A stretch of 40,448 nt of DNA. Source: a virus. The position numbers were made by a program, and so were the translations under genes. Positions 632 to 33,793 of the stretch are shown here, one piece after another (position 1 is the first letter of the stretch; every line of letters starts with the position of its first letter). Under the pieces are notes generated by a model. It had not been told where the DNA came from. It ran no database searches and saw only the letters and a list, made by a program, of their open reading frames with translations. The stretch lies in the IMG/VR virus record IMGVR_UViG_3300035670_000530, positions 1-40,448 of that record; one strand, 5' to 3'.

Positions 632-997
632 CTAGCGCTGGACGATCCAGTCAAGCCGAAATGTGGCGCGCCAGCGCCCTGTGGCGGCATCGCGCGTGGT
701 GCCAAGCCACAGCGAGATGTGCGCGTGCGGCTCGATGGCATCGCGCAGGGCCACGGTGGCCGAGGCGGCGCTGTCGGTGTCTGCTGCGTACACATCCACC
801 TGCACTGTGCATACGTCTGCATCGGGCAAGTTGCCCAGGTAGTTCTCGGGGGCGCCGTCCACCACCTGCCACACGGCATAGGGCAGCGCCACGCTTTGCG
901 GTGCGGCGCCGAATGGAAAGAACCGCACGGGCGCTGTGCCCAGCGCGGCGCGCACGGCGGCACTGGCAGCGACGATGGGGAAGATGGGCGGCGTCAT
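632..997 (-). CDS. Tail terminator/completion protein (DUF3168-like)
   Basis: A 121-residue protein with the length and order of the gpU/DUF3168 tail terminator family, which caps the tail tube at the head end. It starts at an ATG overlapping the upstream gp10-like gene (ATGA at 997-994). It begins [20 protein letters not shown] and contains a [20 protein letters not shown] stretch typical of DUF3168. One copy of the genome-wide 16-bp motif (806-821) lies inside and encodes the residues ADVCT. The next gene is the tail tube, which fits this role. Confidence 0.8.
806..821 (-). repeat. Copy 1 of TGCAGACGTNTGCACA
   Basis: The minus strand reads TGCAGACGTATGCACA, identical to the copy at 9721-9736. 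It lies inside the tail terminator gene. Confidence 0.75.
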
Positions 998-6152: not shown

Positions 6153-7867
6153 GGATTACCTGCTGGTTTTGCGCCAATGCCTGCGGGCGCGGAAAAGAAG
6201 CCGTCCCGGTCGCCTTCGTCGGTGGCGTTGGCCAGCGCACGGCCCAGTGCCATGAGCATGGCCATGGGGCCGTCGATCTTGTTCTCGGGCCGCTCTTTGG
6301 TGGGGGCCATCAGTTCGTTGAACTTGGATTGCTTCACAACCAGGTTGCTGACCATCCAGCCCATCACGGGGTTGCCGTCGTGCTGCAGCTTGCCTTCGCG
6401 CACCATGTTTTCCACCTGGATCAATACCGGGGTGAAGAACACGGCGCGCTGGGCGATTTCGACCAGCGGCAGGCCTTCTTCGATGAGCTTGCCCGCGAAG
6501 TACATGGACAGGGCCGGGTCGAAGGCGATCTCCTGCACGTCGAAGCGGCGGCAATACTTGCGCATGTCGTCGGCCACCACGTCGAAGTCGGTGAGGTCGC
6601 CATCGGTGACCACCACGTAGCCCTGGCGCGCCCAGCCTGCCAGGTGGGCGTTGCCGCTTTCCTGAATGGCGAGGTCGTTCAAGTACAGACGTGTGCACAC
6701 GCGCCACTTGTCGGCGGCTTCGTCGTGCCAGGCCAGGGAGAGCGCGGCAAAGTCCTTTTTTTGCGCGAGGTCGAGGCCCATGTAGACCTTGGCCCCGTCG
6801 GGGATGGTGTCGATGTGCGCTGCCTTGGCGCCGCAGCGCTCCCAGGCCCGCATGTCCATCCAGGGGCTTTCGCCGCTGACCCACACGTTCAGGCGCTTGG
6901 TCAGGAAGTTGCTGAGGGCGCTGGGCATGGCCTGCGCCTTGCTGGCCTGGGCCATCAGTTCGTCGAGCTGGACCGACTTGCCCAGGTTGGGGTTGGCCTT
7001 GATCCACACGGCGGGGTCGAAGTGGTCGTCGCCTTCGTCCAGCGTGTAGATGATGCCGAACACGCGTTCGTCCTGCACCACGCGGTCTAGTATCTTGGTG
7101 ACGTGCGTGCGGCGCTCGTAGCAAATGCCGCTGCGGTCGGTACCTGCGGTGGTAATGGTCCACAGCAGCGACTGCTCGCGGGCGCCACGGGCGCTGTCGA
7201 TCACGTCATACACCGCACGGGTCTTGTGCGCGTGCAGCTCATCGAGCAGGGCAAAGTGCACGTTCAGGCCGTCGAGCGTGCTGCCTTCGGCTGCCAGCGG
7301 TGCGGCCTTGCTGCTGGTGTGGGCCACAGTAAGGCTGTGCTGCATGATGGCCACGCCCAGGTGGGTGCGCAGGCCGGGTGAGCGCTCGGCCATGGCCTTG
7401 GCGTCATCGAACACGATGCGCGCCTGGTCACGGGTGGTGGCGGCGGTGTAGCACTCTGCGCCATGTTCACTGTCTGCGGCCAGCATGTACAGCAGCAGGG
7501 CCGAGCCCTTGGCGCTTTTGCCGTTTTTGCGGGCCTCTTCCTCGTACGCTTCCAGGAAGCGGCGCAGGCGGGTTTCGTGGTGCACCCAGCCAAAGACGGT
7601 GGTGAGGATGAAGCACTGCCAGGGCTCCAGCTCCAGCAGGCGCCCTTCGCGGGCCCACTTGCCCTTGATGTGGGGCAGCAGTTCAGCAAAGGCACAGGGG
7701 CGCGCTGCCATCTCGGCATCGAACACCCAGGGCCAGTCTTCGCTGCGCTCGCGCAGCAGGTCATCCGCCTGGCGCTGCACAGCGAGGCGGGTCCATTTGC
7801 AGGTGGGAATGGCCCCGCTGAGCACATCGCGCATGTACTGCTGCGCGCGCTCAACGTATTCATTCAT
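6149..7867 (-). CDS. terL: Terminase large subunit
   Basis: A 572-residue packaging ATPase and nuclease. Walker A-like RKNGKSAKG is at residues 113-121 and Walker B FALLDE at 205-210. The nuclease half contains GLDLAQKKDFAALSLAW, a candidate active-site Asp strand, plus later acidic positions in FDVVADDM and KIDGPMAM. It is full length for the HK97-type family. The start at 7867 lies 4 bases after the small terminase stop; an upstream in-frame extension would overlap that gene. The stop overlaps the portal start. Confidence 0.95.
   Translation of the reverse strand: MNEYVERAQQYMRDVLSGAIPTCKWTRLAVQRQADDLLRERSEDWPWVFDAEMAARPCAFAELLPHIKGKWAREGRLLELEPWQCFILTTVFGWVHHETRLRRFLEAYEEEARKNGKSAKGSALLLYMLAADSEHGAECYTAATTRDQARIVFDDAKAMAERSPGLRTHLGVAIMQHSLTVAHTSSKAAPLAAEGSTLDGLNVHFALLDELHAHKTRAVYDVIDSARGAREQSLLWTITTAGTDRSGICYERRTHVTKILDRVVQDERVFGIIYTLDEGDDHFDPAVWIKANPNLGKSVQLDELMAQASKAQAMPSALSNFLTKRLNVWVSGESPWMDMRAWERCGAKAAHIDTIPDGAKVYMGLDLAQKKDFAALSLAWHDEAADKWRVCTRLYLNDLAIQESGNAHLAGWARQGYVVVTDGDLTDFDVVADDMRKYCRRFDVQEIAFDPALSMYFAGKLIEEGLPLVEIAQRAVFFTPVLIQVENMVREGKLQHDGNPVMGWMVSNLVVKQSKFNELMAPTKERPENKIDGPMAMLMALGRALANATDEGDRDGFFSAPAGIGAKPAGNP
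6684..6699 (+). repeat. Copy 2 of the 16-bp motif (one mismatch)
   Basis: Reads TACAGACGTGTGCACA, inside the large terminase gene. Confidence 0.65.
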
Positions 7868-9255: not shown

Positions 9256-9684
9256 CTATAGCGGCTTCATCGCTTGGTCGGATGCACGGGCCGCCACGCG
9301 CTTGCGCTCTGCCTCTTCGGCCTTCGCCTGCAGCCAGGCATCAATGAAGTGGTCAGCCTGCTCCAGCTGCGCCTTGATGGTGCTCTCGGCCCGCTGCATA
9401 CGCTGCGCTGTGGCCCGCACGCCCAGGTCTTTCAGGTAGATGCAGTCAATCGTCACAAACAGATGGCCCTTGCCCAGCTTCAGCGCACTCACGGCCTTGT
9501 CGGTCTCTGCCGCCTCTTCCTCAAACACCGGGATCGGCACGTTGTTGTAGCTGCCGCGTGACCACACCTCACTGGCCAGCACCGACTTGGTGGCAAAACC
9601 ACGCCCGCCGCCCGCGCCGCGCGATGACCAGATGGCCCAGTTCTCCAACCGCCGCTGGATGTACTTAATGCGCGCCACTGGCAC
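9256..9684 (-). CDS. Q-like antitermination protein
   Basis: About 143 residues, similar in plan to the phage 82-type Q family (Phage_antitermQ). The N-terminal YIQRRLENWAIWSSRG segment matches the family RLExWxxW start. A central helix and the C-terminal ATAQRMQRAESTIKAQLEQA helix-turn-helix-like stretch match its AxxLxxAExxIxxxL end. The GTG at 9684 (or 9678, preceded by GGGGGG) is preferred because an ATG at 9753 would overlap the upstream gene by about 90 bases. It would load on RNA polymerase at the adjacent late promoter to allow read-through of the leader terminator and of the internal hairpins in the late operon. Confidence 0.75.
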   Translation of the reverse strand: MPVARIKYIQRRLENWAIWSSRGAGGGRGFATKSVLASEVWSRGSYNNVPIPVFEEEAAETDKAVSALKLGKGHLFVTIDCIYLKDLGVRATAQRMQRAESTIKAQLEQADHFIDAWLQAKAEEAERKRVAARASDQAMKPL

Positions 9685-10033
9685 CCCCCGCGTTCGCTGG
9701 TGCTGGCAGCTCACCAAAAATGCAGACGTATGCACAGCCAAAGCAGGCCACAAAGCTGCCCAGCTCGGCCTGGTCCTTTTCGATCACGCCCGCAGGCTGG
9801 CCCACCACATGCCCGGCCTCAAAGGCGTAGAAGCAACCAGGCTCACCACCCAGGCCACGGCGCACCAGCGCATACACCGCACTGCCCACCTCTTCAGCCC
9901 GGCTCTTGATCAGGGCGTACACCTCGGGCATGCACTGCTTGATGGTCCTGAGCCCGCTTTCAATGCGGTTGATGCGGGCCTGCTCCAGGTACTCAGCACT
10001 TGCTTGCCCTGATGCTGCTGTCCAAGTGTCCAT
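9665..10033 (-). CDS. Hypothetical protein upstream of Q
   Basis: A 122-residue protein beginning MDTWTAASGQASAEYLEQAR, with helical ARINRIESGLRTIKQCMPEVYALI and a Cys-containing CFGCAYVCIFGE segment near the end. No family is recognised. The ATG at 10033 follows AAGGA with suitable spacing, so it is preferred over 10042. It overlaps the Q-like gene by about 20 bases, implying co-expression. Its first codons contain one of the TGGACA triplets, and its end carries copy 3 of the 16-bp motif. Confidence 0.65.
   Translation of the reverse strand: MDTWTAASGQASAEYLEQARINRIESGLRTIKQCMPEVYALIKSRAEEVGSAVYALVRRGLGGEPGCFYAFEAGHVVGQPAGVIEKDQAELGSFVACFGCAYVCIFGELPAPANAGGASGAH
9721..9736 (+). repeat. Copy 3 of the 16-bp motif
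   Basis: TGCAGACGTATGCACA, identical to copy 1 in the opposite orientation, inside the gene upstream of Q. Confidence 0.75.
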
Positions 10034-10248
10034 ACTGTCCATCCTTTTCCATAGAGATCACAGGTGAGAGGGAATGCACCTGCGCGTACGCGCTCGCAGG
10101 TGCGCCTGCCTGCGCCTGCCCGCACCGTAAGGCGCGGGGCCCATGCCGCAGGCTCTGGGCAATGCAGCGGCCTCAACTCCAAAAAGTAGGGAATTGGGGT
10201 AGCTGGTGGCATCCATGTAAAAACGTGGACACCTTGGACACCTGGACA
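10019..10248. other. Mirrored TGGACA repeats flanking a hairpin; candidate replication origin
   Basis: Three TGGACA hexamers on the plus strand (10226, 10235, 10243; spacing 9 and 8) face three on the minus strand (plus-strand TGTCCA at 10019, 10027, 10036; spacing 8 and 9). Between them is a perfect 9-base inverted repeat GCACCTGCG/CGCAGGTGC (10076-10084 and 10095-10103). The region follows the primase-helicase gene. Iteron-like repeats beside a replication gene suggest an origin; this is inference. Confidence 0.4.
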
Positions 10249-15102: not shown

Positions 15103-15312
15103 TCATGCATGGGAAGCCTCCTGGTGGGTTGCTCCCGCCAGCACTTTTTCAGCAAGCTGCTTCAGCTTCTCGCCAATGGTGTAGCGGGGGTCCTTTGTCG
15201 AACCCCTGGCGAGGTCGCTGATGGTGGATTGCGCACAACCGCACTCAGCGGCAATTTGCGGCTGACTCCACCCGGCAGCCTGCAGCTCGGAGATGACGTT
15301 GGACCAATTCAT
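15103..15312 (-). CDS. Cro-like repressor (XRE/YdaS-type helix-turn-helix)
   Basis: A 69-residue protein, mostly one helix-turn-helix domain: WSQPQIAAECGCAQSTISDL (residues 15-34), then RYTIGEKLKQLAEKVL. It is divergent from the repressor gene across a 66-base operator region, the Cro position. The predicted -10 box ends 6 bases before the ATG, so the mRNA may be leaderless. It should repress the repressor promoter and its own promoter early in infection. Its last codons overlap a good ribosome site for a downstream start. Confidence 0.85.
   Translation of the reverse strand: MNWSNVISELQAAGWSQPQIAAECGCAQSTISDLARGSTKDPRYTIGEKLKQLAEKVLAGATHQEASHA
15107..15124. repeat. Direct repeat, right copy (pair with 14663-14680)
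   Basis: GCATGGGAAGCCTCCTGG, at the 3' end of the cro-like gene. Similarity continues weakly (TGGGTTG) beyond the 18 bases. Confidence 0.8.
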
Positions 15313-15318
15313 GGCCCG

Positions 15319-15347
15319 AATATATCGGTTTTCCGATGTGTCGTAAA
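15319..15347 (-). promoter_or_regulatory. Early promoter for the cro operon
   Basis: The minus strand shows TTTACG (15347-15342), a 17-base spacer and TATATT (15324-15319). The strongest operator palindrome fills most of the spacer, so repressor binding should block it. Confidence 0.75.
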
Positions 15348-15380
15348 GCGGATTTCCGATAGGGCTATCGGCTAGCCTAT
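15324..15380. promoter_or_regulatory. Three repressor operator sites
   Basis: Site 1, ATCGGTTTTCCGAT (15324-15337), has perfect 5-base inverted arms. Site 2, AGCGGATTTCCGAT (15347-15360), matches 12 of 14. Site 3, ATCGGCTAGCCTAT (15367-15380), matches 10 of 14 and touches the repressor start codon. Centres are 23 and 20 bases apart, the layout of a lambda-type right operator. Confidence 0.85.
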
Positions 15381-15924
15381 GAAAATGGCCCGCCCCAAGA
15401 AACCACGCACCGAATTCGGCGAACGTCTGTTTGCTGCACGCACTTATGCGAAGCTGTCACAGACGGCTCTGGCGCGGGCCGTGGGCATGTCGCAAAGCAC
15501 ACTCGCTGAAGCCGAGAGCACAGCTCAAGGCTCATCAAAGACAGCACAAATAGCAGCTGTAACTGGCGTAAGTGCTCAATGGCTCGCAGACGGTCACGGC
15601 CCCATGGTCATCGCCGTGACAGAAGCCGTAGCCCCGTACAACGTAGCACCTACGCCACAGCCAAAAGCAAGCGCCCCCACCCCCATTGGCCCCAGCCCGG
15701 TGCAGCAGCTCATCATTGAGCTGGGCGAGTTGCTGGCACAGCACGACCACCTAGCGAGGCTGTCTGTGGCGCCACTCTTGCAGAGGCTGGCCGAGTTCCC
15801 TGAAGAACGCTCAGCCATCGCACTGCACGTACAGAGAACCCTACAGGGTGCGCTGGGAAACGAACCAGCGCCAGGATCTACCAGTTTCCAGACCGGCGCG
15901 GCGAAAATATCGACAGGAAAATAA
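15379..15924 (+). CDS. CI-like repressor without the S24 autoprotease domain
   Basis: A 181-residue protein with an N-terminal XRE helix-turn-helix (residues about 13-66; LSQTALARAVGMSQSTLAEAE) and then GVSAQWLADG, typical of this repressor group. A Pro/Ala linker follows, then a helical C-terminal region (VQQLIIELGELLAQHDHLAR). The usual LexA/S24 peptidase part is absent, so RecA-driven self-cleavage is not expected. It divergently neighbours cro. The second ATG at 15385 is also possible; neither has a ribosome site, and operator site 3 reaches the first. Confidence 0.85.
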   Translation: MKMARPKKPRTEFGERLFAARTYAKLSQTALARAVGMSQSTLAEAESTAQGSSKTAQIAAVTGVSAQWLADGHGPMVIAVTEAVAPYNVAPTPQPKASAPTPIGPSPVQQLIIELGELLAQHDHLARLSVAPLLQRLAEFPEERSAIALHVQRTLQGALGNEPAPGSTSFQTGAAKISTGK

Positions 15925-15940
15925 CTTAGCCATCCTGCAT

Positions 15941-16441
15941 ATGACCGCCACCAAAGCTCTCGCCCTGGCCTGCATGGCCGTGATCTGCTCAAACGCCACT
16001 GCGCAATGGCGCTACAGCACCGAGGCAGACAAGATGACAGGCACCACCACCCACTGGGCCGAAGTCAAGAGCGACAACAGCCTGAGCCTGGACTTCCCCT
16101 ACAAAGGCAGCAACTATGGCCGCCTGTACTTTCGCCAGCGCGACGGCAAATCGCCAGAGGCATTCGTGACCATCGAAAAGGGCCAGATACTTTGTCGCAC
16201 CTATGACAACTGCTCGGTAAGAGTTCGCTTTGATGAAAGCCCACCAGTGCGGATGAGCGCAGCCCCTGCTGCCGATCACTCATCAGAGATCATCTTTATC
16301 AGCCCGCCCGCCAAATTTTTATCATCCGCGCAAAAGGCGAAGCGCATTTTGATTGAACTGAGCTTGTATCAAAACGGCAATCAAGTGCTGGAGTTCGCTA
16401 CCCCCGAACCGCTCACGCTGCCGAAGCGCTCAAAAAAGTAA
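15941..16441 (+). CDS. Exported protein downstream of the repressor
   Basis: A 166-residue protein with a signal peptide (MTATKALALACMAVICSNATA, probable cleavage after ATA at about residue 21). The mature part is beta-rich (LYFRQRDGKSPEAFVTIEKG) with two cysteines (CRTYDNCSVRVRF) that could form a disulfide. It follows the repressor by 16 bases in the same direction, so it is probably made in the lysogen and acts in the periplasm or envelope. The fold is unknown. Local composition is more AT-rich than the structural genes. Confidence 0.7.
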   Translation: MTATKALALACMAVICSNATAQWRYSTEADKMTGTTTHWAEVKSDNSLSLDFPYKGSNYGRLYFRQRDGKSPEAFVTIEKGQILCRTYDNCSVRVRFDESPPVRMSAAPAADHSSEIIFISPPAKFLSSAQKAKRILIELSLYQNGNQVLEFATPEPLTLPKRSKK

Positions 16442-16464
16442 AACTTTGAGTCACCGATAAAATT

Positions 16465-16505
16465 ATCGGAATTCCGTTGACAAGATAGATCGGTTTTCCG
16501 ATACT
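16465..16505 (+). promoter_or_regulatory. Rightward early promoter with two repressor operators
   Basis: TTGACA (16477-16482), a 17-base spacer and GATACT (16500-16505). Operator ATCGGTTTTCCGAT (16489-16502), identical to site 1 at cro, overlaps the -10; a second, ATCGGAATTCCGTT (16465-16478, 11 of 14), overlaps the -35. An extra CCGAT half-site lies at 16454-16458. It drives the operon beginning at 16535. Confidence 0.85.
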
Positions 16506-16506
16506 G

Positions 16507-16530
16507 CCCTCGTTCGCAACGAAACGAGGG
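16507..16530 (+). promoter_or_regulatory. Leader hairpin covering the ribosome site
   Basis: Perfect 8-base arms CCCTCGTT (16507-16514) and AACGAGGG (16523-16530) with an 8-base loop lie at the predicted transcript start. The 3' arm contains the GAGGG ribosome site for the gene at 16535. Translation control, RNA stability or an antitermination signal are all possible. Confidence 0.6.
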
Positions 16531-16534
16531 CACC

Positions 16535-16849
16535 ATGCACCCCACACCCCCCAGTGCAGACGTCTGCACAACCCTCCCGCCCGGCAATCTGCCCATGCGG
16601 GATGCCTATCCATTCATTACGGATGGCGATGACTTCTGGCTTCGCAGCGACTGCGGCCGCGTGAAGATTGCATTTATCAAGCAGCAACCCAGCAAATATC
16701 CCTCGGCCCCCATTGGGGCGTGGATCGGGCACGAGACACGCATCGACAACCACGGCGAAACGTGGATCAAGAGAGATAGCAGCACTCATTACGTAGTCGA
16801 CAACTTCGGCTTTCTGGCCCGCGTTGAGCAGCAAGGCGGTGCCGCATGA
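16535..16849 (+). CDS. First gene of the plus-strand early operon, unknown
   Basis: A 104-residue protein starting MHPTPPSADVCTTLPPGNLP. The central part (DGDDFWLRSDCGRVKIAFI, then GAWIGHETRIDNHGETWIKR) looks like a small beta-rich domain. No family is recognised. As the first gene behind a strong repressed promoter it is made immediately on infection, a usual place for host takeover or anti-defence proteins (inference). It contains copy 4 of the 16-bp motif. Confidence 0.65.
   Translation: MHPTPPSADVCTTLPPGNLPMRDAYPFITDGDDFWLRSDCGRVKIAFIKQQPSKYPSAPIGAWIGHETRIDNHGETWIKRDSSTHYVVDNFGFLARVEQQGGAA
16555..16570 (+). repeat. Copy 4 of the 16-bp motif (contains a perfect palindrome)
   Basis: TGCAGACGTCTGCACA; the first 14 bases are a perfect palindrome. 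It lies about 50 bases downstream of the early promoter. Confidence 0.8.
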
Positions 16850-16977
16850 TCCGCTGCACCGTCACCGTGGGCGCCCTCACCTACGCGGGCCTGTACCCCA
16901 CCACCACCGCCGCAGCCCTGGCCGCCATGGCCCTGTACCCCGATGCTCGGGGCATCAGCGTGAGGGCCGTGCGATGA
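16846..16977 (+). CDS. Tiny early protein, 43 residues
   Basis: A short frame beginning MIRCTVTVGALTYAGLYPTT and ending RGISVRAVR. It is tied to both neighbours by ATGA overlaps (16846-16849 and 16974-16977), strong evidence for translational coupling. The composition (Ala/Thr-rich, two aromatic turns, basic end) resembles small phage host-interaction proteins, but no family is recognised. Confidence 0.6.
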   Translation: MIRCTVTVGALTYAGLYPTTTAAALAAMALYPDARGISVRAVR

Positions 16978-17444
16978 ACCCCAACCAACTCAACATAGAC
17001 ATCCTGAGAGCCTTTGGCGTTGACACCAAATGCGTCACCCAGGCCGACATTCAGCTACGCCCCGGTAAATTCCCCGAGGTCAATGTGACGATGGTGCCCT
17101 GGCCCCTGGAGCCCGTGGGCGCCAAGCTGAAGAGCATCGCCCTGCGCTGCCACTTGGTGCCCGCCCCCGCAGCAGCGCCCGAACCCGAGCCCGAGCCTGC
17201 GCCACCGCCGCTGGACATTGTGGAAATGTGCAACACGGCCCAGCACTGCATCTATGTGGCCATTCAGCGGGCGGGCGATGAGGCTTTGCACCAAATGAAC
17301 CTGCGCAGCGCCGCCTACAACAGCGAGCACGACTATCAGCTCACAAAAAATCAGCTTCGTGCAGCTGCAGTAGAGCGCCGCCGGCTTACCCACGAGTTCA
17401 AGCCGCTGCGGCAGTTCCTGGGGGAGTGGTATCGCAATGCCTAA
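16974..17444 (+). CDS. Early operon protein, unknown
   Basis: A 156-residue protein beginning MNPNQLNIDILRAFGVDTKC. The N-terminal domain (residues 1-65) is followed by an acidic Pro/Glu/Ala linker (PEPEPEPAPPP) and a helical C-terminal domain (HCIYVAIQRAGDEALHQMN) ending in a basic stretch. The two-domain form suggests a DNA- or RNA-associated adaptor, which is a guess. Its end overlaps the next gene by 8 bases. Confidence 0.65.
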   Translation: MNPNQLNIDILRAFGVDTKCVTQADIQLRPGKFPEVNVTMVPWPLEPVGAKLKSIALRCHLVPAPAAAPEPEPEPAPPPLDIVEMCNTAQHCIYVAIQRAGDEALHQMNLRSAAYNSEHDYQLTKNQLRAAAVERRRLTHEFKPLRQFLGEWYRNA

Positions 17445-17721
17445 CCCCCTCACCCCCAACTGGCGCACCAGCCTGGCCACCGGCGCCCTGGTGCTGGCCG
17501 TGGCCGCCTACGGCAACCACACCGCCAAGCAGCAGCAAGCCAACACCGCCGAGGCCGAAGACGCCGCAGCCATCGCCAGCCGCCAATGGGCCGCAGAAGT
17601 GATTTGCGAAGGCAACCGCTACCACTGGGCCGACGCGCACACGCTGGTGTGCCAGCCCACCCCCAGCGCCCAGCCTGCGGCGCACACCCCTTTGTCTTAC
17701 CCCATCGCATCCCAGCAATGA
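17437..17721 (+). CDS. Small membrane-anchored or exported protein
   Basis: A 94-residue protein with one hydrophobic stretch near the N-terminus (SLATGALVLAVAAYG, about residues 12-26). After it comes a soluble part with two cysteines (VICEGNRYHW and TLVCQPTP). It is likely anchored in the inner membrane with the C-terminal part outside. It overlaps both neighbours. Function unknown. Confidence 0.6.
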   Translation: MPNPLTPNWRTSLATGALVLAVAAYGNHTAKQQQANTAEAEDAAAIASRQWAAEVICEGNRYHWADAHTLVCQPTPSAQPAAHTPLSYPIASQQ

Positions 17722-18065
17722 CCACCGTTACCACCATTCACCTCATTGACCAGCCAGGCGGCGGCATCACCGTGTGCACCACAGCAGGCACTCCCCACCC
17801 AGGCCAGCGCCTCACCCCCGGCCAGGCCCTGGCCACCGACCTGCTGCGCGAATGCACCCACCGCGCCAGCGACGTGCGCTACTGGCAGGGCCACGACAAG
17901 GCCATGGCCTTTGTGCTGGAGCTGAGCAACCCCGAAGGCCTGGGCTATGCCGACAAAGCCACCCTGCACGCAGCCGCCCAGGCCGTGCTGGGCCGCCCTT
18001 ACGGCCTGGGCAACCCGCCCGCCCCCAGCAAGCCCACATCCCCCGCTGCGCCCGCCGCAGCCTGA
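17718..18065 (+). CDS. Early operon protein, unknown
   Basis: A 115-residue protein starting MTTVTTIHLIDQPGGGITVC. The middle is helical (GQALATDLLRECTHRASDVR, FVLELSNPEGLGYADKATLH) and the end is Pro/Ala-rich. The start overlaps the previous stop (ATGA). No recognised family. Confidence 0.6.
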   Translation: MTTVTTIHLIDQPGGGITVCTTAGTPHPGQRLTPGQALATDLLRECTHRASDVRYWQGHDKAMAFVLELSNPEGLGYADKATLHAAAQAVLGRPYGLGNPPAPSKPTSPAAPAAA

Positions 18066-18090
18066 CCCCATCACACCCAGGAGCAACACC

Positions 18091-18360
18091 ATGCCCCAGC
18101 CAAGCAAAGCAGTCACATCCACCCAAGGCCGCAGTGCCACCGGCAAAGTGCCCGGCGCAGGCCTGCACAGCATCAGCACCACAGGCAAGCGCTACGGCAT
18201 GGCCCCCAGCAAAGTAGCGCTGACCATGCCCAGCTACGCACCCCACTGCGCCAGCACCACCCCCACGGGCTACACCTGCCCCGAGCTGACCCGTGCCCCC
18301 GCCCGCGCCGGTGCGAGTGACGCCTTCAAGCTGCCCAGCCGCAGCGCGTTCACCAAGTGA
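18091..18360 (+). CDS. Early operon protein, basic and Ser/Thr-rich
   Basis: An 89-residue protein starting MPQPSKAVTSTQGRSATGKV with a clear AGGAG ribosome site 7 bases upstream, the first gene in this run not coupled by overlap. It is basic and rich in Ser, Thr, Pro and Ala with little predicted structure, so it may be a nucleic-acid or partner-binding peptide. Function unknown. Confidence 0.6.
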   Translation: MPQPSKAVTSTQGRSATGKVPGAGLHSISTTGKRYGMAPSKVALTMPSYAPHCASTTPTGYTCPELTRAPARAGASDAFKLPSRSAFTK

Positions 18361-18368
18361 GGCAAGCC

Positions 18369-18868
18369 ATGGAACAAGCAAACACCTGCCCCGCCGAACT
18401 GGGCATGCTCATTCGCAGCAAGCTCCATGCAACCGCCTGCCCAGGCGCGGGAGCAAGAGGCGAGCTTGCCCTGATTGAGTGGTCCGACTTGCAGCCAGAC
18501 GGCAGCTACGAAGGTTACGCCCGCCTCTACGTGTGGGACGACTCCACCCAAGCAGCCGAGGTGGCTGGCTGGTTCACTGAAGCAGGCCTGATCGACGTGC
18601 TCATCGACCAACAGATGCACGACGCAGGCAACCAAATCCACGAAGGCCGCGCAATCGACGGCGTGCGCTCTTGGGACATTCGCTTCAGCACCAAGCCCAC
18701 AGCGCAACCACCACGGCCAGCAACCGTTTGCATGGCTGAGTACCAATGGCAGGGCCAAACACGGCGGCTGCCAGCCAAGCAGCTTCTCGAAGCGCTTCGC
18801 TGGACTGCCCGCTGCCCCCCGCATCGCTCGCAGTCACCTTCTACGACGCACCCAATCCACATGCCTGA
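18369..18868 (+). CDS. Early protein with an apparent -1 frameshift at a C6 run
   Basis: The frame starts MEQANTCPAELGMLIRSKLH and reads GELALIEWSDLQPDGSYEGY, clearly a folded protein of about 150 residues. At C6 (18815-18820) it passes without a stop into the ParB frame through an unlikely linker. In the -1 frame the sequence instead continues SLAVTFYDAPNPHA and stops at 18866-18868, 7 bases before the ParB ATG. Either one C is missing here (assembly or mutation), or ribosomes slip on CCCCCCG. Both a 166-residue protein and a long fusion to ParB are possible outcomes. Function unknown. Confidence 0.6.
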
Positions 18869-18875
18869 GGTCACC

Positions 18876-21077
18876 ATGGCCACCGAATCCCACGACACCC
18901 ACACCCAGGCCCTGCCCACCCCCGGCGCAGGCCCGCAAATGCGCATGCTGCCCGTGGGCGGCATCGTCGCCAGCCTGACCAACCCGCGCAAAATCTTCAA
19001 GGCTGAGCCGCTGCAAGAGCTGGCCCACAGCATCCAGGCCAGCGGCGTGCACCAGCCCATCCTGGTGCGCCCCCTGCCCGCTGCACGGCTTGAAGAAACC
19101 AGCCGCGCCCTGCGCTCCAGCGTGCTGGCGTGGCCTTTTGCCACCACCCGCAAGCGCGAACCCATCGAGTACGAACTGGTGGCCGGTGAGCGCCGCTGGC
19201 GTGCCTGCCAGCTGGCCGGTGTGGCTGAAATCCCGGCCATGATTCGTGAGCTGACCGACGAGCAGGCGCTGGAAGTGCAGGTGGTGGAAAACCTGCAGCG
19301 CGAAGACGTCACCGAGCTGGAAGAAGCCGAGGGCTACGAAGTGCTGATGCAGCACGGCACCTTGAACGCCGACCAGGTGGCCGCCAAGATCGGCAAAAGC
19401 CGCAGCTACGTCTACGCCCGCCTCAAGCTGCTGGCCCTGGGCAACACCGCCCGCAACGCCCTGCGCGAAGGCCTCATCGATGCCAGCAAGGCCCTGCTGA
19501 TTGCCCGCATCCCCGACGAGGGCCTGCAGATCAAGGCGCTGGATTTTTGCACCCACGCCGACTGGCAGGGCGACTTGCCCGGCTATCGCGAGTGTGCCCA
19601 CCACATCCAGGACACCTTCATGCTGCGCCTGGACAAGGCCCACTTCACCATCACCGACGCCACCCTGCTACCCGAAGCCGGTGCCTGCGGCGACTGCCCC
19701 AAGCGCACCGGCGCAAACCCCGACCTGTTCAAGGACGTGGACAGTGCAGACGTGTGCACAGACCCCAAGTGCTACCGCGCCAAGGAAGACGCCCACACCG
19801 CCCAGGTGGTGGCCGCAGCCCAGGCCAAGGGCCAGACGGTGATTGCAGGCGAAGAAGCGGCCGAACTGGCCTACGACAACTACAACAGCAAGCTCAAGGG
19901 CTACAGGCGGCTGGACAGTGTGGACGACAGCCCCACCGACAAGCCCCTGCGCAGCATCATCGGCCAGCAGATGGAGGCCGAGGGCATCAAGCCCACCATG
20001 ATTGCCAACCCACGCAAGCGCAGTGAGCTGCTGGCCTGCCTGCCCAACGAAGTGGTGCTGCGCCTGCTCAAGGCCGTGGAAGGCCAGGCCAAGGCCACCA
20101 AGGAAGTGGCGGCAGAGGTCAAAGAGCTGGTCAAGACCAAAGAGGCCAAGGCGCTGGAGAAGGCCAAGGCCAAGTACGAGCAGGCATGGCGCGATCGGTT
20201 GCTTGACTTGGCCTGGGCGCAGATCGAAGGGCAAATGCCCTACCAATTCACCGCCGACGTGCACCGCTACCTGCTGCGCCGCGAAATCAACAGCCTGAGC
20301 CAGGAAGACGCCGCCGCGCTGGCCAACATCCTCAACCTGGGCAAGGTGGGCGCGCACAACGCCCTGCAAGACTTCGCGCAAACCACCCGCAGCCCTGACC
20401 AGCTTCACCTCCTGGTCATCATGCAGCGCGACAGCGGCGCCAGCCACTACGCACACGGCCGCCCCAAAAACGAAGGCCTGATGCTGGTGGCAGGCATCGC
20501 GCTTGGCGATGGCTTGGACGCCGCCGTGAAGGAAAGTCAAGCCCGCGCCGCTGCCGAACACCTGCCCCAGCCCGCCAAAACCCCGGCAAAGCCCGATAAC
20601 ACTGCGGGCCAGGAAGGCACTTCTACCCCGCCCCCCGCTGCGCAAGCTAGTCCTACGCGCGCAAAAGCCAAAAAATCACGCGGCCCCGCTGCGCACGCTG
20701 GCGAAGTGCCCAAAACCAGCGCAGCCCACGCTGCCGCCCTGATAGCAGCCGAGCTGGCGGCGCTAGAGGACCAGAACCAGGCGCCTGCGGCGCAAGGCAA
20801 CGAAGCGCCCCCCGCTCCTTCGGGCGGGGATGCGCCCGCTACCCATGGCCAGGCCGGTGCAGATGCCGAGACAGCGGCCACAGTGAATGAGGCAAGCGCT
20901 TTTAAGGTCGGGATGGTTGCCACCGTCAAGCCCACCGCAGCCAACGCCAAATGGCGCGGGCGCACGGTGACGGTGGTGGAGGTGGGCGCAACGATCAAAG
21001 TGCGCCAGGCCAACACGCCACCGAACAAGGCCGAGCGCTGCAGCTTCTTTGATGAAGACCTGGAGGTGGTGGCATGA
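18876..21077 (+). CDS. ParB/KorB-like protein with zinc cluster and C-terminal SH3-like domain
   Basis: A 733-residue protein. The ParB-N domain spans about residues 22-145 (LTNPRK, GERRWRA near 103, VENLQRED near 138), with an insertion between the first strands and GERR. The central helix-turn-helix KorB-like domain includes LNADQVAAKIGKSRSYVYAR. A Cys cluster (CGDCPKRT then CTDPKCY, about 270-300) is likely a zinc site. After a helical region and a long Ala/Pro linker, the last 55 residues form an SH3/KOW-like domain (VGMVATVKPT...RGRTVTVVEV). No ParA is encoded. It may bind phage DNA as a CTP-switch clamp, regulate transcription, or act as a nuclease; none can be decided. The ATG at 18876 follows GAGG. 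Confidence 0.85.
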   Translation: MATESHDTHTQALPTPGAGPQMRMLPVGGIVASLTNPRKIFKAEPLQELAHSIQASGVHQPILVRPLPAARLEETSRALRSSVLAWPFATTRKREPIEYELVAGERRWRACQLAGVAEIPAMIRELTDEQALEVQVVENLQREDVTELEEAEGYEVLMQHGTLNADQVAAKIGKSRSYVYARLKLLALGNTARNALREGLIDASKALLIARIPDEGLQIKALDFCTHADWQGDLPGYRECAHHIQDTFMLRLDKAHFTITDATLLPEAGACGDCPKRTGANPDLFKDVDSADVCTDPKCYRAKEDAHTAQVVAAAQAKGQTVIAGEEAAELAYDNYNSKLKGYRRLDSVDDSPTDKPLRSIIGQQMEAEGIKPTMIANPRKRSELLACLPNEVVLRLLKAVEGQAKATKEVAAEVKELVKTKEAKALEKAKAKYEQAWRDRLLDLAWAQIEGQMPYQFTADVHRYLLRREINSLSQEDAAALANILNLGKVGAHNALQDFAQTTRSPDQLHLLVIMQRDSGASHYAHGRPKNEGLMLVAGIALGDGLDAAVKESQARAAAEHLPQPAKTPAKPDNTAGQEGTSTPPPAAQASPTRAKAKKSRGPAAHAGEVPKTSAAHAAALIAAELAALEDQNQAPAAQGNEAPPAPSGGDAPATHGQAGADAETAATVNEASAFKVGMVATVKPTAANAKWRGRTVTVVEVGATIKVRQANTPPNKAERCSFFDEDLEVVA
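19745..19760 (+). repeat. Copy 5 of the 16-bp motif
   Basis: TGCAGACGTGTGCACA inside the ParB-like gene, encoding part of its Cys cluster (ADVCT). Confidence 0.75.
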
Positions 21078-21340
21078 AAAGAGTAGATCACCTCACCGAT
21101 CTGAGCAAGCTAGCAAGAGCAGCCACGCGAGGCGGGTGGATAGCTGTTGGAACGTGGGTCGAAAACACCCGCGACGATTTGCCAGACATCGTTGTCCAGC
21201 CCGCCAGCGAAGACAGAGGGCCAAACGACGACGAAAAGCGCCGTGAAGCGGATGCGCGCTTCATCGCAGCAGCCAATCCAATCCGCGTGCTGGAGCTGAT
21301 AGCGGAAATCCGCGAACTACGCAGGCTGCTATCCCTGTGA
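21074..21340 (+). CDS. Ea22-like phage protein
   Basis: An 88-residue protein starting MKRVDHLTDLSKLARAATRG. The C-terminal FIAAANPIRVLELIAEIREL is the hallmark of the Ead/Ea22-like family of early phage proteins (FIAAANPxxVLxLIxExE). Its start overlaps the ParB stop (ATGA). The molecular role of this family is not established. Confidence 0.8.
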   Translation: MKRVDHLTDLSKLARAATRGGWIAVGTWVENTRDDLPDIVVQPASEDRGPNDDEKRREADARFIAAANPIRVLELIAEIRELRRLLSL

Positions 21341-21368
21341 AAAACACCAACAAACACCAAAGAACACC

Positions 21369-21809
21369 ATGAACCCAAAAAACACTCACGTCACCATCGG
21401 CCACCGCGGCGAGCAACTGTTCGACAAGAACAACGTCATGTCCATGGTGGCCGAAGACATCAACGAAGGCCACCAGATGCAGCGGCAAACCAACCGCCGC
21501 ATTACACCGGACTTCCAGGCAGCGACAGAAACCATTGACGCCATGGCAAGCCACCTTGAGGAGGCCCAAAGCCGCATGCTCAAAAGCATGGATGCCCTGG
21601 CAAAAGGCGCAACCGACGCAAGCCGCAAAGCCCGCAGCAGCGCCAGCGACATGGCGGCGATGCTCGACAAAATCAATCGTGGCGCTAACTACGAACGGCT
21701 GGAACGCAACGTGGCGTTGCTGGAGCGCACGGCAGTAGCGATGCAGGCGCTATCAGACCTGGAGAAGACGGGCCAGCTCTCCCGCGTCATCAAAGCCTTG
21801 CAGCCATGA
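21369..21809 (+). CDS. Coiled-coil early protein, unknown
   Basis: A 146-residue protein, almost fully helical, with heptad-like spacing over residues 50-140 (MASHLEEAQSRMLKSMDALA, RLERNVALLERTAVAMQAL). It lacks an obvious ribosome site; the upstream leader repeats AACACCAA. It overlaps the next gene by 4 bases. Probably oligomeric; function unknown. Confidence 0.65.
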   Translation: MNPKNTHVTIGHRGEQLFDKNNVMSMVAEDINEGHQMQRQTNRRITPDFQAATETIDAMASHLEEAQSRMLKSMDALAKGATDASRKARSSASDMAAMLDKINRGANYERLERNVALLERTAVAMQALSDLEKTGQLSRVIKALQP

Positions 21810-22369
21810 AGCGCCCACACCGCAAACCCCAGCCCAAAACCGTCTACAGCATGATCGACGAGCTGCTGGCCAGCGACACCCAGCCCATGCCCGAGCGCAA
21901 CCGCACCTACCAGCTGCGCCGCATGGCCGATGCGCTGCATGAGCTGATGCACGCGCCCCAGCCAGGCACCAACGCCTGGCGCGTGGTGAGCGATGCGGTC
22001 AACCTGCTCGAAACCCTGGTGCAGCACGGCGAAGCGCCCATCAAAGACGCCAGCGGCAAGGTCATCGCCAGCTACTGGCGCGACTGCGACGGCGACGCGC
22101 TGGAGATCCGCGACAACAGCGGCCTGCTGCTCGACGCCATCACCGCCATGACCAAGGCAGGCCAGCGCATGTTTGACGGCCACCCCCTGCGCCTGGACGG
22201 CCCCGGCATCGCCGCCGTGCGCGCCGTGCTGGAGGACTACCAGGCCGCGCTGGAGACCCTACCCCACCGCACCATGGTGCGCTGCCACCGCGCCACCGAA
22301 AAGCGCATCCGCGAAGTGTTCAACAAGATCGAACAGCTGCCAGACGGCGTTCACGTCATGGCCATTTGA
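21806..22369 (+). CDS. Early operon protein, unknown
   Basis: A 187-residue protein starting MKRPHRKPQPKTVYSMIDEL. It is mostly helical with a central SYWRDCDGDALEIRDNSGLL segment and a C-terminal ATEKRIREVFNKIEQLPDGV. The ATGA start overlap shows coupling to the coiled-coil gene. No domain is recognised. Confidence 0.65.
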   Translation: MKRPHRKPQPKTVYSMIDELLASDTQPMPERNRTYQLRRMADALHELMHAPQPGTNAWRVVSDAVNLLETLVQHGEAPIKDASGKVIASYWRDCDGDALEIRDNSGLLLDAITAMTKAGQRMFDGHPLRLDGPGIAAVRAVLEDYQAALETLPHRTMVRCHRATEKRIREVFNKIEQLPDGVHVMAI

Positions 22370-22386
22370 GCCTGGAGCCATCACCA

Positions 22387-23418
22387 ATGACTGACAAGCA
22401 AAACAACCCCGACCCCATCACCCACGCCGCCCGCCTACTGCGCGAAGCTGCCGAGGAACTGCGCCAGGCGCACACATTGAGCACCGACCGGAACAACTGG
22501 ATAGGAGAACCCGAGGCCAAGGCCGCCTACGACGAACACCTGGCCGCAGCCCAGGCGCTGGAGGATTGGGAGGCAGCCGTGGGCGCAGGCGGGGTGCAGG
22601 CACTCAGCGCAGCGCCAGCCATCAAGCCTTTGGTCTGGTCGGATGAAAGCGGCCCCACTGACAGGATTCGGTACAACCACATCACAGCCGAAACCGCACT
22701 CGGTCAATTTAGCGTGGAGTGGAAAGGCCGGAAGGAAGAAGACGTGCCATGTGTCTATTTGGCTGGAGACTACATAGGGGTTGCAAGTGATCTGGGCGGC
22801 GCTAAGCAGCTTGCAGAACGGCATATCCGTGAACTTGTGGCAAACCTGCTCGCAGCGTCACCCACACCCCCAGCACTCAGCGCAGCGCCAGCGATAGGGG
22901 ATGAATTGCGCGACACACTTGTGGCCGTCAGCGCGGCAATTGCAGAGCGGGACGATCGGGCCGCACAGAAGATGATTTGTGAAATCTTGGCCGCATCCAC
23001 CACACCCCCGGCAGAGCAGCAAGCCCAGCCCGGCGCGGTGTATGCGGAGCTGCCACAGCCTGATTCATGGTTTCACTTCACGGCACAGTTTTGGGAAAAT
23101 AAGCTGTGCGACTTCGCAGACCGCACCCATGCACTGCGCATGCAACCAACCCCCAAGGCAGCGCGCACGCCCCACCTTTTGGCCGCCGACCACAAAGGCA
23201 TGCGCGTGGACTACAGCGGCTTGCTGAGCCAATGCCGCCGTGCACTTCAGAGCAGAGAGCCAGCCAATGCAGAAATGTTGCGCCAGTTCCAAGGGCACCT
23301 GCAGGAACTTGGTCGCCGCTGGTACGCAGGTGACACCGTGGCGGTGGATGAATTCCTGCAGCTTTACTGCATCGAGCACGAAGCCCGAGTAGCACTGGCC
23401 GCACAGGGAGGACAGTAA
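22387..23418 (+). CDS. Modular Ea22-type early protein with repeated linkers
   Basis: A 343-residue protein made of at least three small modules joined by similar linkers. Module 1 is helical (AARLLREAAEELRQAHTL). Module 2 starts IKPLVWSDES and ends GAKQLAERHIRELVANLLAA, a common small phage domain. Module 3 contains QCRRALQSREPANAEMLRQF. The linkers encode ALSAAPAI twice, from a perfect 20-bp DNA repeat (22600-22619 and 22873-22892), so modules may be swapped by recombination. The ATG at 22387 follows GGAG; a TTG at 22366 would overlap the previous stop. It ends one base into the AlpA gene. Confidence 0.7.
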   Translation: MTDKQNNPDPITHAARLLREAAEELRQAHTLSTDRNNWIGEPEAKAAYDEHLAAAQALEDWEAAVGAGGVQALSAAPAIKPLVWSDESGPTDRIRYNHITAETALGQFSVEWKGRKEEDVPCVYLAGDYIGVASDLGGAKQLAERHIRELVANLLAASPTPPALSAAPAIGDELRDTLVAVSAAIAERDDRAAQKMICEILAASTTPPAEQQAQPGAVYAELPQPDSWFHFTAQFWENKLCDFADRTHALRMQPTPKAARTPHLLAADHKGMRVDYSGLLSQCRRALQSREPANAEMLRQFQGHLQELGRRWYAGDTVAVDEFLQLYCIEHEARVALAAQGGQ

Positions 23419-23687
23419 TGGACGCCACCAGCATCATCCTGCCACCAGGCACGCCCTTCGTGCTCGACCTAGACCGCGCGGCTGAAATGCTCTGCGTGTC
23501 CAAGTCCACCGTGCAAAAGCTGGTGCGTGAGGGCGACTTCCCCAAGCCGCGCCTGCTGTCAGCCAACCGGGTGGGCTACCTCTCGGTAGAAGTGGCGGCC
23601 TGGGCGCTGAAGCGGCCCGAGGCGAACCTGCTGCCACCGCCCAACACGGGCGCACCCAAGCCTAAGCGCCAGGCGGCTGGGCAATGA
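23418..23687 (+). CDS. AlpA-family regulator, probable excisionase
   Basis: An 89-residue protein with a MerR/AlpA-type helix-turn-helix: LDLDRAAEMLCVSKSTVQKL then VREGDFPKPRLLSANRVGYL (the GxFPxPxxL and RVGW-like pattern of the family) and VEVAAWALKRPE. It is the last gene of the early operon and is convergent with the integrase, overlapping its 3' end by 26 bases. This fits a directionality factor made only after early-operon induction. The start shares bases with the preceding stop (TAATG). Confidence 0.85.
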   Translation: MDATSIILPPGTPFVLDLDRAAEMLCVSKSTVQKLVREGDFPKPRLLSANRVGYLSVEVAAWALKRPEANLLPPPNTGAPKPKRQAAGQ

Positions 23688-24936
23688 TGGCCTCAAGTGC
23701 TGCACTGAGCTGGCCTAGCCAGTGCAGCCGCTCTTTGTCGTAGCGGTAGAGGTTGTAATCTCCCGCCACGCCGGGCACGATGTGCCCCAATATCGCCTCG
23801 CCCACCTCATGCGGGCAACCCAGCTCGGCCAGTTTGGTGCGGCCTGTGCGCCGCAAGTCATGCGGTGACCAGTGGGTGACCGTGAGTCGCTTGCGCACAT
23901 GGTCGGGCCTGCTCTTGCTGTAGGGCTGCAGGTAGTGCACCTTGGTTTGCATGTACGCCTGCGATTGCGCCTTCACCACCCCCGTGCGCGAAGTGCTGGG
24001 GAACAGCAACCCACCAGGCCCCTGCAGCAGCCGCCGCACCACCGCATCGGCCCGCCCCAGCAGGGGCACGCGCAGGTCAGCCGCCTCATCGCGGTTGCGG
24101 TTTTTGGTCATGCTCTTGGGCATGGTCCACCACAGCACCCCGCCATCCTCCCGAATGTGCTCGCGGCGCATCTCCACAATCTCGCCACCTCGGGTGCACG
24201 TCCACAGCTGCAGCGTCAAAAAGTCACGCACCTGCTGGCTGAACAGCGGGAAGTCCACCAGCACCAGTGTGCGCACCTCATCATCACGCAGCACGCGCTT
24301 GGCTGTGCCCTTGTGCTCGCCTTCGCGCTTGGCGCCCTTGCTGCGCAGCTTGCGGGCCAGCACCTGGCTCCACCAGTTGGGCAGGTCTTCTGGAATACGC
24401 CCGGCATCCATGGCAAACGTCCACGCGGCCGCCATCTCGGTCTTCACCGAATTGGCCAGCATGGGCCGGTCTGAAAGCCCTGTCACCAGGTCAAAAACGA
24501 AACGCCGCGTAACTTCTGCCACAGGCAGGCTCGCGTGCGCGGCCGTGGCCACCTCCAGCCGCCGCGCCACGGCCTTGGCCCCCTTGGGCTGGCGCCTCAC
24601 TGCCAGGTAGCCCTTGGCATAGTCGGCCACCAGATCACCCAGGGTGTAATCCGCACCAGGCGCGTGCACCGGCTGGGGCCGCACCAGGGCGCGCAGGTTG
24701 GCCCCAGCATCGCGCTGGGCCCGCAGCTCTTCCCACCGGGCCACAGCAGCAGACACCGTCATCTCAGGCCAGTGCCCCAGGCGCACTTGTTTCATCTGCC
24801 CCGTTGCCACGGATTTGTAACGGTAAATCCACGTCTTGCGGCTGGCCGAAGCCACAAGCCGCAACCCTTGGCACCCATCAACGACAATATGATTTCCCGG
24901 CTGCAACGCCTTCGCCGCTCGCGCATCAAAATACAT
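23662..24936 (-). CDS. int: Tyrosine integrase (P4-like)
   Basis: A 424-residue site-specific recombinase. The N-terminal DUF4102-like arm-binding part includes GLRLVASASRKTWIYRYK; the core-binding domain follows. Catalytic residues visible: Arg in TCTRGGEIVEMR (about 251), HDLRRT (His359, Arg362), GH (His385) and Tyr394 nine residues later. The ATG at 24936 is preferred over 25047, whose extension would run through the att-region repeats. Its upstream DNA holds the attP candidate. Confidence 0.93.
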   Translation of the reverse strand: MYFDARAAKALQPGNHIVVDGCQGLRLVASASRKTWIYRYKSVATGQMKQVRLGHWPEMTVSAAVARWEELRAQRDAGANLRALVRPQPVHAPGADYTLGDLVADYAKGYLAVRRQPKGAKAVARRLEVATAAHASLPVAEVTRRFVFDLVTGLSDRPMLANSVKTEMAAAWTFAMDAGRIPEDLPNWWSQVLARKLRSKGAKREGEHKGTAKRVLRDDEVRTLVLVDFPLFSQQVRDFLTLQLWTCTRGGEIVEMRREHIREDGGVLWWTMPKSMTKNRNRDEAADLRVPLLGRADAVVRRLLQGPGGLLFPSTSRTGVVKAQSQAYMQTKVHYLQPYSKSRPDHVRKRLTVTHWSPHDLRRTGRTKLAELGCPHEVGEAILGHIVPGVAGDYNLYRYDKERLHWLGQLSAALEAIIAQPPGA

Positions 24937-24975
24937 CCGCCACCCCTTACAACCAGCCAGGCGGCGTAGGCCAAT

Positions 24976-25230
24976 AAAACCTACGCCAAACCTACGCCAA
25001 GGGCGCAAGTGTAGCCAATAGCGGGCAAGCGCAGATAACAAGAACAAGCAGCGCCAAAAAGTAAAGGCAAGCGGGAAAACATATTCATATCAACGACTTG
25101 CAATATAAAGTCGTTGCGAATCAAAGAGTTATGAAAGCAGAGCAAACGATGAATATCGTTATCCTGGAGAATTGCCGCCTCCTATGGAAAATGGCTCACA
25201 TATTCATTTACTACGCCAAAACCTACGCCT
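24976..25230. other. attP candidate region
   Basis: This AT-rich gap upstream of int is bounded by paired repeats of CCTACGCCAA type: two at about 24977-24998 and two at 25212-25229. Inside is a perfect 9-base inverted repeat CAACGACTT/AAGTCGTTG (25091-25099, 25108-25116) around an 8-base centre GCAATATA, the shape of a tyrosine-recombinase core site. Another palindrome AACGAT-GAAT-ATCGTT (25145-25160) and two ACATATTCAT repeats (25079, 25198) may bind Int arms, Xis or IHF. No gene is seen here. Confidence 0.65.
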
Positions 25231-33042: not shown

Positions 33043-33791
33043 CCTCGATACCTCAGTTGCAGACGTGTGCACTCGGCCCAGTGGCCACCGTAGACCACGC
33101 GTTCGCTCAACCTGCCGTACAAATGGTGCAGCATCGCGTGGGGCACCGGGTGCAGGCCGGGCTGCTCCTGCAGACCCGTGTGGCCCAGGTACACGCCGGC
33201 GTGGTTGGCCACGGGCGAGCGCACCTGCATAAGGATCACATCGCCGGGCTGCAGCGCCTCGCCGCGCGCCAGGGGCGCAAAGCCGGCACGCTCAAACCCC
33301 TGCATGTACAGGTCCTGGCCCTTGTGCCACCAGTCGTCTTCGCGCTCGAAGTCCAGCAGCTCGATGCCGCGCTCGCGATGGTAGTAGTCGCGCACCAGGG
33401 TGTAGCAGTCGAGCACGCGGTGAAAGAACATGCGCCCCAGCAGCGGCGCGCGCCAGCCCGTGGGGGCAAAGCTGTGGAGTTCACCCGCTCCCTCTGCCGT
33501 CACGCTGACGATGTGCCAGGGCAGGCCCGAGGCTTCGCAGCCCGCCAGGTCGGCGTCGCTGGGCAGGGGCGGCGCGTCAGGGTGCGAATGCACCACGGCC
33601 AGCACGCGGCCGGCGTCTTCTGCGGCGGCGTAGTCTTCGGGTGCAAGTGCGAAGTGTTCGGTGCCACTGGCCGTGTTGCGGCAGGGCACATAACGCTCGC
33701 GCCGGCCGGCCGCAACGATGAGCCCGCAGCTCTCGCGCGGGTACTGCGCCACGGCGTGCGCATGCACGGCGGCCAGGGTTGCTTTGCGCAT
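33039..33791 (-). CDS. Tail tip protein K (JAMM peptidase plus NlpC/P60)
   Basis: A 250-residue two-domain protein. The N-terminal Mov34/JAMM domain has Glu20, the HSHP motif (His68, His70), Ser78 and Asp81. The C-terminal NlpC/P60 domain has Cys129 in LDCYTLV and His197 in NHAGVYLG. Lambda gpK has this architecture and is needed for tail-tip assembly; the NlpC half may cut peptidoglycan during entry. It follows L by 2 bases. Confidence 0.93.
   Translation of the reverse strand: MRKATLAAVHAHAVAQYPRESCGLIVAAGRRERYVPCRNTASGTEHFALAPEDYAAAEDAGRVLAVVHSHPDAPPLPSDADLAGCEASGLPWHIVSVTAEGAGELHSFAPTGWRAPLLGRMFFHRVLDCYTLVRDYYHRERGIELLDFEREDDWWHKGQDLYMQGFERAGFAPLARGEALQPGDVILMQVRSPVANHAGVYLGHTGLQEQPGLHPVPHAMLHHLYGRLSERVVYGGHWAECTRLQLRYRG
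33058..33073 (+). repeat. Copy 6 of the 16-bp motif (one mismatch)
   Basis: TGCAGACGTGTGCACT, near the 3' end of the K-like gene. Confidence 0.65.
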
Positions 33792-33793
33792 GT

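Follow-up and report, generated by a model that had tools for sequence, protein, structure and literature searches.

Which protein reads a 16-bp palindrome that recurs six times in unrelated genes of one phage genome, and what might the phage do with it? The window (the whole stretch of DNA analysed here, a 40,448-base virus record) comes from a temperate tailed phage, in which Pfam recognizes capsid, portal, terminase, VapE-like, lambda-type tail, integrase and AlpA genes, PHROGs adds a CII-like gene and a small repressor-like gene, and the Pfam helix-turn-helix matches of a CI-like gene all fall just under their cut-offs.

The palindrome and its chance expectation

A preliminary description of this DNA reported six near-identical copies, matching at 15 to 16 positions and lying in unrelated genes. 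All six are found where it had placed them, with 0, 1, 0, 0, 0 and 1 mismatches to the reported word TGCAGACGTNTGCACA, and they occupy six different ORFs. Because the reported word is palindromic, the six copies also match on the opposite strand, offset by two bases and at 1 to 3 mismatches. Shifting the earlier frame one base to the left gives the natural unit, the 16-bp palindrome GTGCASACGTSTGCAC (Table 1).

Table 1. Copies of the palindrome and other features of the window; mismatches are counted against GTGCASACGTSTGCAC.
Feature	Coordinates	Strand	Sequence	Mismatches	Location or content
Site 1	807..822		GTGCATACGTCTGCAT	2	Inside ORF 442-963 (-)
Site 2	6683..6698		GTACAGACGTGTGCAC	1	Inside the large terminase gene, from codon 428
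Site 3	9720..9735		ATGCAGACGTATGCAC	2	Near the 3' end of ORF 9665-10042 (-), a relative of Aval gp18
CI-like gene	15379-15924				Flanked by CCGATA-N4-TATCGG palindromes (15356-15371 and 16454-16469)
CI-operator-like palindrome	16454-16469	+			In front of the genes leading to parB
Promoter-like hexamers	16477-16505	+			In front of the genes leading to parB
Site 4 (perfect)	16554..16569		GTGCAGACGTCTGCAC	0	Codons 7-12 of ORF 16535-16849 (+)
parB (probable start)	18876..21077	+			ParB_N (CTP-binding), HTH_ParB and a long C-terminal part
Site 5	19744..19759		GTGCAGACGTGTGCAC	0	Inside parB, coding the conserved peptide SADVCT
Tyrosine integrase	23662..25047	-			Pfam match
Site 6	33057..33072		TTGCAGACGTGTGCAC	1	Overlap of tail genes 32464-33072 (-) and 33039-34019 (-)

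In dinucleotide shuffles (n = 100), matches with up to 3 mismatches averaged 2.28 and reached at most 10, against 13 observed, both strands being counted so that most copies enter twice. Synonymous-codon shuffles (n = 200) of 40 hand-picked ORFs, which cover 34,202 of the 40,448 bases (the rest kept as is, overlaps shuffled twice), gave on average 1.3 copies with up to 2 mismatches and never more than 3, against 6 observed. A codon-preserving shuffle had been set beforehand as the refuting test, and six copies were not reached in it; the accompanying statement that chance would give far less than one copy proved too strong at the mismatch levels used here.

Across 158 copies from 35 genomes, selected by at most 1 mismatch to the pattern, the two S positions of the palindrome are C or G about equally often, and there is a weak outer flank of A/T, then C on the left and G on the right. 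When palindrome families were ranked without supervision, the motif came first in just 18 of 39 genomes, with GC-rich coding words ranking above it. The spacing of sites is mildly more even than random (mean rank 0.33 against 0.5 expected in 35 genomes, on maps taken as circular, with several genomes truncated at 40,000 bases, and with four genomes plus those with fewer than 4 sites left out); the tendency being mild, even spacing was dropped as proof that the genome is coated. That the sites act as hairpins or terminators was thought less likely, because they accompany parB and because sites 4 and 5 coincide with none of the seven terminator-like hits in 15200-24000. The palindrome centre varies in the copy inside parB, and the near-invariant centre of the 158 copies is no argument on a hairpin, given their selection by at most 1 mismatch.

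The word TGCAGACGTCTGCA was not found in the literature searched, outside which most subscription papers lie, and no such site was seen in the accessible parts of the literature on phage ParB, orphan ParB and the ParB-CTPase. The earlier remark that the sites belong to no known family thus stands for the word itself, but not for its architecture, which is like that of a parS site.

ParB and its association with the palindrome

The phage encodes a protein with the ParB fold and the CTP-box residues. Its ORF opens at 18357 and homology starts only at about 18876; the ParBs of Acidovorax phage Aval and Variovorax phage VarioGold begin at about residue 174 of the product of ORF 18357-21077, and therefore the parB start, judged from these alignments, is probably near 18876. 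The ParB_N domain scores 95.1 bits (Pfam cut-off 26.3) and HTH_ParB PF17762 scores 55.5 bits (cut-off 22.6). The CTP boxes GERRxR and ENxQR (ENLQR) are present in the ParBs of the window, Aval and VarioGold; the other ParB frames were selected by GERRxR/ENxQR, so that the invariance of the boxes there is by construction. Of the solved structures, those closest in sequence are ParB with CDP or a CTP analogue, Spo0J and Noc, with KorB weaker, and a predicted model of the protein (mean pLDDT 75.8, pTM 0.45) retrieves the same structures. Its scores stay below the cut-offs of the Noc NCBIfam model (144.9 against 315 bits) and of PRTRC ParB TIGR03734 (131.6 against 278.6 bits). The recognition-helix stretch (mostly KSR-x-Y) is largely common to near and distant ParBs, and four cysteines behind the HTH (residues 271, 274, 294 and 299) are invariant in 31 aligned ParBs. 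The spacing of these cysteines is zinc-ribbon-like.

Aval (62%) and VarioGold (46%) encode the closest ParBs among annotated phage records. Both phages also carry the dispersed palindrome, Aval in five copies and VarioGold in six, counts that none of 100 shuffles reaches, and less than 1% of the window's 14-mers are found in either of them. A single-protein search of viral contigs returned no ParB relatives, and a three-ParB alignment returned 226. Distant ParB carriers include Gordonia phage Dogfish and the Aphanizomenon record Yong-DA. Record L486 (ON073792.1), named Aphanizomenon phage, holds mostly polysaccharide enzymes together with a replication protein, ParA and ParB; there is no phage structural gene among its listed genes, and it is plasmid-like in look.

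The association of site and protein was followed in three sets of viral records, in searches that tolerate 2 mismatches, so that some counted sites are due to chance. In the set picked by ParB (50 records chosen by hand as the best-ranked ones of at least 30 kb, from the 80 loci kept of the 226 relatives), all 50 records have at least one site and 47 have at least three, with 251 sites in total against 29 for the reversed pattern. In the set picked by the site (50 records, mostly >17 kb, chosen by hand from 80 listed among at least 120 stretches with the exact pattern), 38 of the 50 encode a ParB of the window's family. The 29 of these that lie outside the ParB-picked set hold 135 sites against 10 in the control, each record having at least one site by construction. 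Seven aligned ParBs from site-picked records have 28-33% identity to the window ParB, and 16 of the 29 records contain no relative of the window terminase; thus, it is ParB, and not the packaging genes, that the site goes with.

The portal-picked set (50 hand-picked records >20 kb, from 80 loci matched by the window portal protein) provides records without ParB. Sites occur in 12 of 12 records with a strong ParB match and in 2 of the other 38, two of the latter 38 having a faint ParB match; the Fisher p of 7.5e-10 is uncorrected for relatedness, and these phages are kin. At a portal identity of at most 70%, sites are present in 3 of 3 records with ParB and in 1 of 37 without. The ParB-positive portal-picked records are mostly the window's nearest relatives, and all counts come from related phages; the ParB-picked set shares with the others 7 of the 12 ParB-positive portal-picked and 9 of the 38 ParB-positive site-picked records. 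The two exceptions are G135 and G063. In G135, the contig ends in the genes beyond CI and has no parB, AlpA or integrase match, and in G063 the place expected for parB is taken by an ATPase-like gene of 648 aa together with one that is integrase-like (both by eye), which makes natural loss of parB possible there. Pfam ParB_N has no match in 49 ParB-negative records, G135 and G063 included. The 648-aa gene of G063 (L033 10863-14258) is OLD-like by eye, and the record has kept five sites.

Twelve of the 50 site-picked records lack a ParB of the window's family; some of them are fragments, and Pfam ParB_N finds nothing in any of the 12. Long records of at least 35 kb in this group are G051 (77 kb, 11 sites), G058 (3 sites), G063 (5) and G089 (6), and G085, of at least 31 kb, has 4 sites against 3 in the control; a further search covered 9 of the 12 records, five of them in part. 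In G051, neither ParB_N nor a ParB profile has a match: does another protein read the same word there? This record (L470-L473) comprises 76,828 bases at a GC of 0.50, with eleven copies of GTGCACACGTGTGCAC or near. Conversely, at least four ParB-bearing records, G024, G036 (one site), G049 and G050, have only sites with 2 mismatches, and a search for an alternative palindrome in G036 and G024 gave nothing convincing.

Recurrent slots and host genomes

The site inside parB is kept at the DNA level. Among 53 loci in which the slot was located by a peptide motif (from 72 ParB frames in 108 loci), 44 carry the site within 1 mismatch, against 4.4 expected from each gene's codons. A motif-free alignment of 85 loci places the slot within 1 mismatch in 57 and within two in 65. 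The first residue of the slot in these 85 loci is Ser, Gly, Arg or Asn, and the first codon is AGT in 35, GGT in 21 and CGT in 7 (63 of 85 together), three codons that differ only at a base outside the palindrome.

Other slots recur as well. The slot of site 1 (residue 50 of ORF 442-963) is also occupied in record G003 and that of site 2 in 12 other records, one of which, G135, has no parB in its contig. Recurrent slots in the terminase gene lie at codon ~430 or ~280 (window numbering) and at codon 351 or 446 (VarioGold numbering); elsewhere, a site recurs at codon 6-10 of an early gene, some 40-60 nt ahead of the Q/gp19 gene and 20-55 nt past the capsid gene. Where the terminase is of a different type, both the slot peptide and the site are absent, and some records have the capsid-end slot occupied instead. 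A comparison of terminase-slot codons between phages with and without ParB was uninformative, as the other terminases code a different peptide there. The sites move, and the set remains.

Among the matches listed, copies with no more than 1 mismatch occur in 4 of 11 host genomes. Acidovorax CF316 (7.1 Mb) has 6, all of them on the prophage contig bearing a parB of the window's family; in a Variovorax MAG (6.0 Mb), all 3 are on the parB contig, as is the single copy of a Ramlibacter MAG; and Paenacidovorax caeni carries three copies on a different contig besides one on the contig with parB. A Rhodoferax genome has none at this threshold and three 2-mismatch copies within the parB locus, and six genomes with distant ParBs have no copies at up to 1 mismatch. 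Copies off the parB contig being few (the three of P. caeni), the palindrome is not a host site, and a host DNA-binding protein, one of the readers suggested in the preliminary description, is unlikely. The ParB-like candidate named there is, on the contrary, strongly supported by the two-way co-occurrence, the ParB-less control and the near-confinement to parB contigs, and the term "lineage-wide" was apt as well. Within megabase genomes, the palindrome is a DNA tag that points to such prophages.

Possible working of the ParB-palindrome pair

A parS site is a 16-bp palindrome with a central ACGT, as is the window palindrome. The likeness to chromosomal ParB-parS of the Spo0J family extends to ParB_N plus HTH_ParB and to GERRxR plus ENLQR, whereas the arms of the window site differ, no ParA was found, the sites are spread over a 40-kb phage, and the window ParB is extended by a long C-terminal part, in which four cysteines are conserved. 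The binding sites of Noc are dispersed too, and the Noc site differs from the window palindrome. Noc, a strong sequence match, is likewise a ParB relative without the ParA-binding motif (PMC12704722, in excerpt), but the window ParB is phage-borne and scores far below the NCBIfam Noc cut-off. The orphan prophage ParBs of a PNAS 2025 survey also combine the ParB-CTPase fold with the lack of a ParA-binding motif; the accessible part of that survey gives no DNA site for them (PMC12704722), whereas the present family has a candidate one.

We consider it quite likely that the palindrome is a parS-type loading site of the phage's own ParB, a CTP clamp with a role other than partition. A ParB dimer would read the 16 bp by its helix-turn-helix, one half-site per subunit, close into a clamp upon CTP binding and then slide off along the DNA; with about five sites per phage genome, spread over its modules, such clamps could reach most or all of the phage DNA. 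Loading of a CTP clamp at parS followed by sliding is the established mechanism (PMC12704722, in excerpt), and by analogy, loading at about five scattered sites with subsequent spreading appears the likeliest working. Since no ParA-type ATPase was found in 42 records, the role would not be ordinary partition, and ParB may mark, compact or shield phage DNA rather than pull it; the benefit to the phage might be DNA organization, protection or KorB-like regulation. An early operon under CI control probably supplies the protein when the phage infects or is induced. We infer this early expression from the operator-like palindrome and the promoter-like hexamers, which are consensus matches near shuffle level, and from the + strand gene run containing parB, which begins with ORF 16535-16849 and has no + strand terminator-like hit.

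More tentatively, and with some doubt, ParB-parS without ParA could act as a genome-wide coat in a large group of integrating siphophages. The sites would then be kept and re-created so that CTP clamps cover the replicating phage genome in the lytic phase, where they may mark it as self and shield or compact it against host nucleases, SMC-type defences or nucleoid factors. An earlier suggestion has ParB-like proteins of phages guiding DNA modification to sites while packaging takes place (PMC6536676, in excerpt).

A KorB-like regulon is rather unlikely: ParB would load at operators and repress or de-repress promoters, locally or by sliding, and the set of sites would be a regulon and not a coat. 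KorB of plasmid RK2, itself a relative of ParB, acts in this way from 16-bp OB sites on promoters up to 1.5 kb off (PMC11790492, in excerpt), and the two systems, as far as the excerpt describes KorB, share a ParB-family clamp, 16-bp sites, a mobile element and a fold match, with 23-24% identity over the fold-matched part. Moreover, some recurrent slots are near possible control points, namely the early gene start, the region before Q/gp19 and that after the capsid gene. Yet 14 of 17 sites in the three phages with gene coordinates lie inside genes, several of them late structural ones, and the window sites too are mostly inside genes, unlike OB sites. The early slot lies ~220 nt (Aval) and ~930 nt (VarioGold) past the start of the first annotated gene beyond CI, distances that are measured to annotated genes and not to promoters. 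In addition, no KorA partner was found among the window proteins scanned (20 proteins with Pfam, 10 with NCBIfam and 10 with PHROGs), which leaves the KorA-like protein proposed in the preliminary description unsupported. The stoperator repressor of mycobacteriophages, by comparison, reads an asymmetric sequence. That the window palindromes are sites of a CI-like repressor scattered over the genome, as in that large mycobacteriophage group, is highly improbable: stoperators, too, are many sites distributed across phage genomes (PMC9283540, in excerpt), but the window sites are palindromic rather than asymmetric, it is another palindrome that flanks the CI-like gene, and the sites go with parB. 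The two CCGATA-N4-TATCGG palindromes on either side of this gene are possibly CI operators. Chance, or a by-product of a conserved protein or of codon bias, might be invoked because one site codes a conserved ParB peptide and the phage DNA is GC-rich, but this has become practically negligible in the face of codon-preserving shuffles that stop at 3 against 6, reversed controls of 29 against 251, the 36 of 38 ParB-less portal-picked records without sites, and the 44 of 53 loci, against 4.4 expected, in the codon test inside parB.

The inverted repeats IR1-4 of phage N15 lie apart from each other in the genome. A plasmid-prophage centromere as in N15 or P1, with ParB and ParA segregating an extrachromosomal prophage, was weighed as well: N15, with its SopB, is a temperate phage with several ParB palindromes bearing GTGC/GCAC arms like those of the window (PMC7205306, in excerpt). 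However, N15 is a linear plasmid prophage in need of active partition (PMC7205306, in excerpt), whereas the window phage encodes an integrase and no ParA was found. The search for a ParA-type ATPase (PF13614, ParM- and TubZ-type motors being outside its scope) detected none in 42 records while matching 14 of 14 control genomes. An N-terminal ParA-binding motif is absent from the window ParB, and among 72 ParB frames the motif occurs in one, behind the CTP boxes and not at the N terminus. Because a tyrosine integrase is present, the prophage is expected to be integrated, and VarioGold was induced by mitomycin C from an integrated, cos-type prophage (PMC9658991, in excerpt). Taken together, these four observations make plasmid partition unlikely, and a centromere of the N15 or P1 kind very unlikely indeed.

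Returning to the non-partition loading site, prophages and plasmids often carry orphan ParBs that lack a ParA-binding motif, and what these do in phages has been a matter of guesswork (PMC12704722, in excerpt). What is new here is a dispersed and widespread candidate ParB-parS pair without detectable ParA in integrating phages. A large group of orphan phage ParBs thereby gains a candidate DNA target; binding, loading, spreading and the effects of a knock-out become directly testable in the inducible phage VarioGold; and a natural family is at hand for studying joint change of ParB and site outside partition.

Two further features of the window may be recorded. An HNH endonuclease gene adjoins the terminase gene at 8579-9109 (-), with a weak IscB-like match far under the cut-off. 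Positions 1-97 are an exact inverted copy of 40143-40239, and 98-224 repeat exactly at 40322-40448; these terminal repeats are probably an assembly artefact on a circular map of ~40,224 bp.
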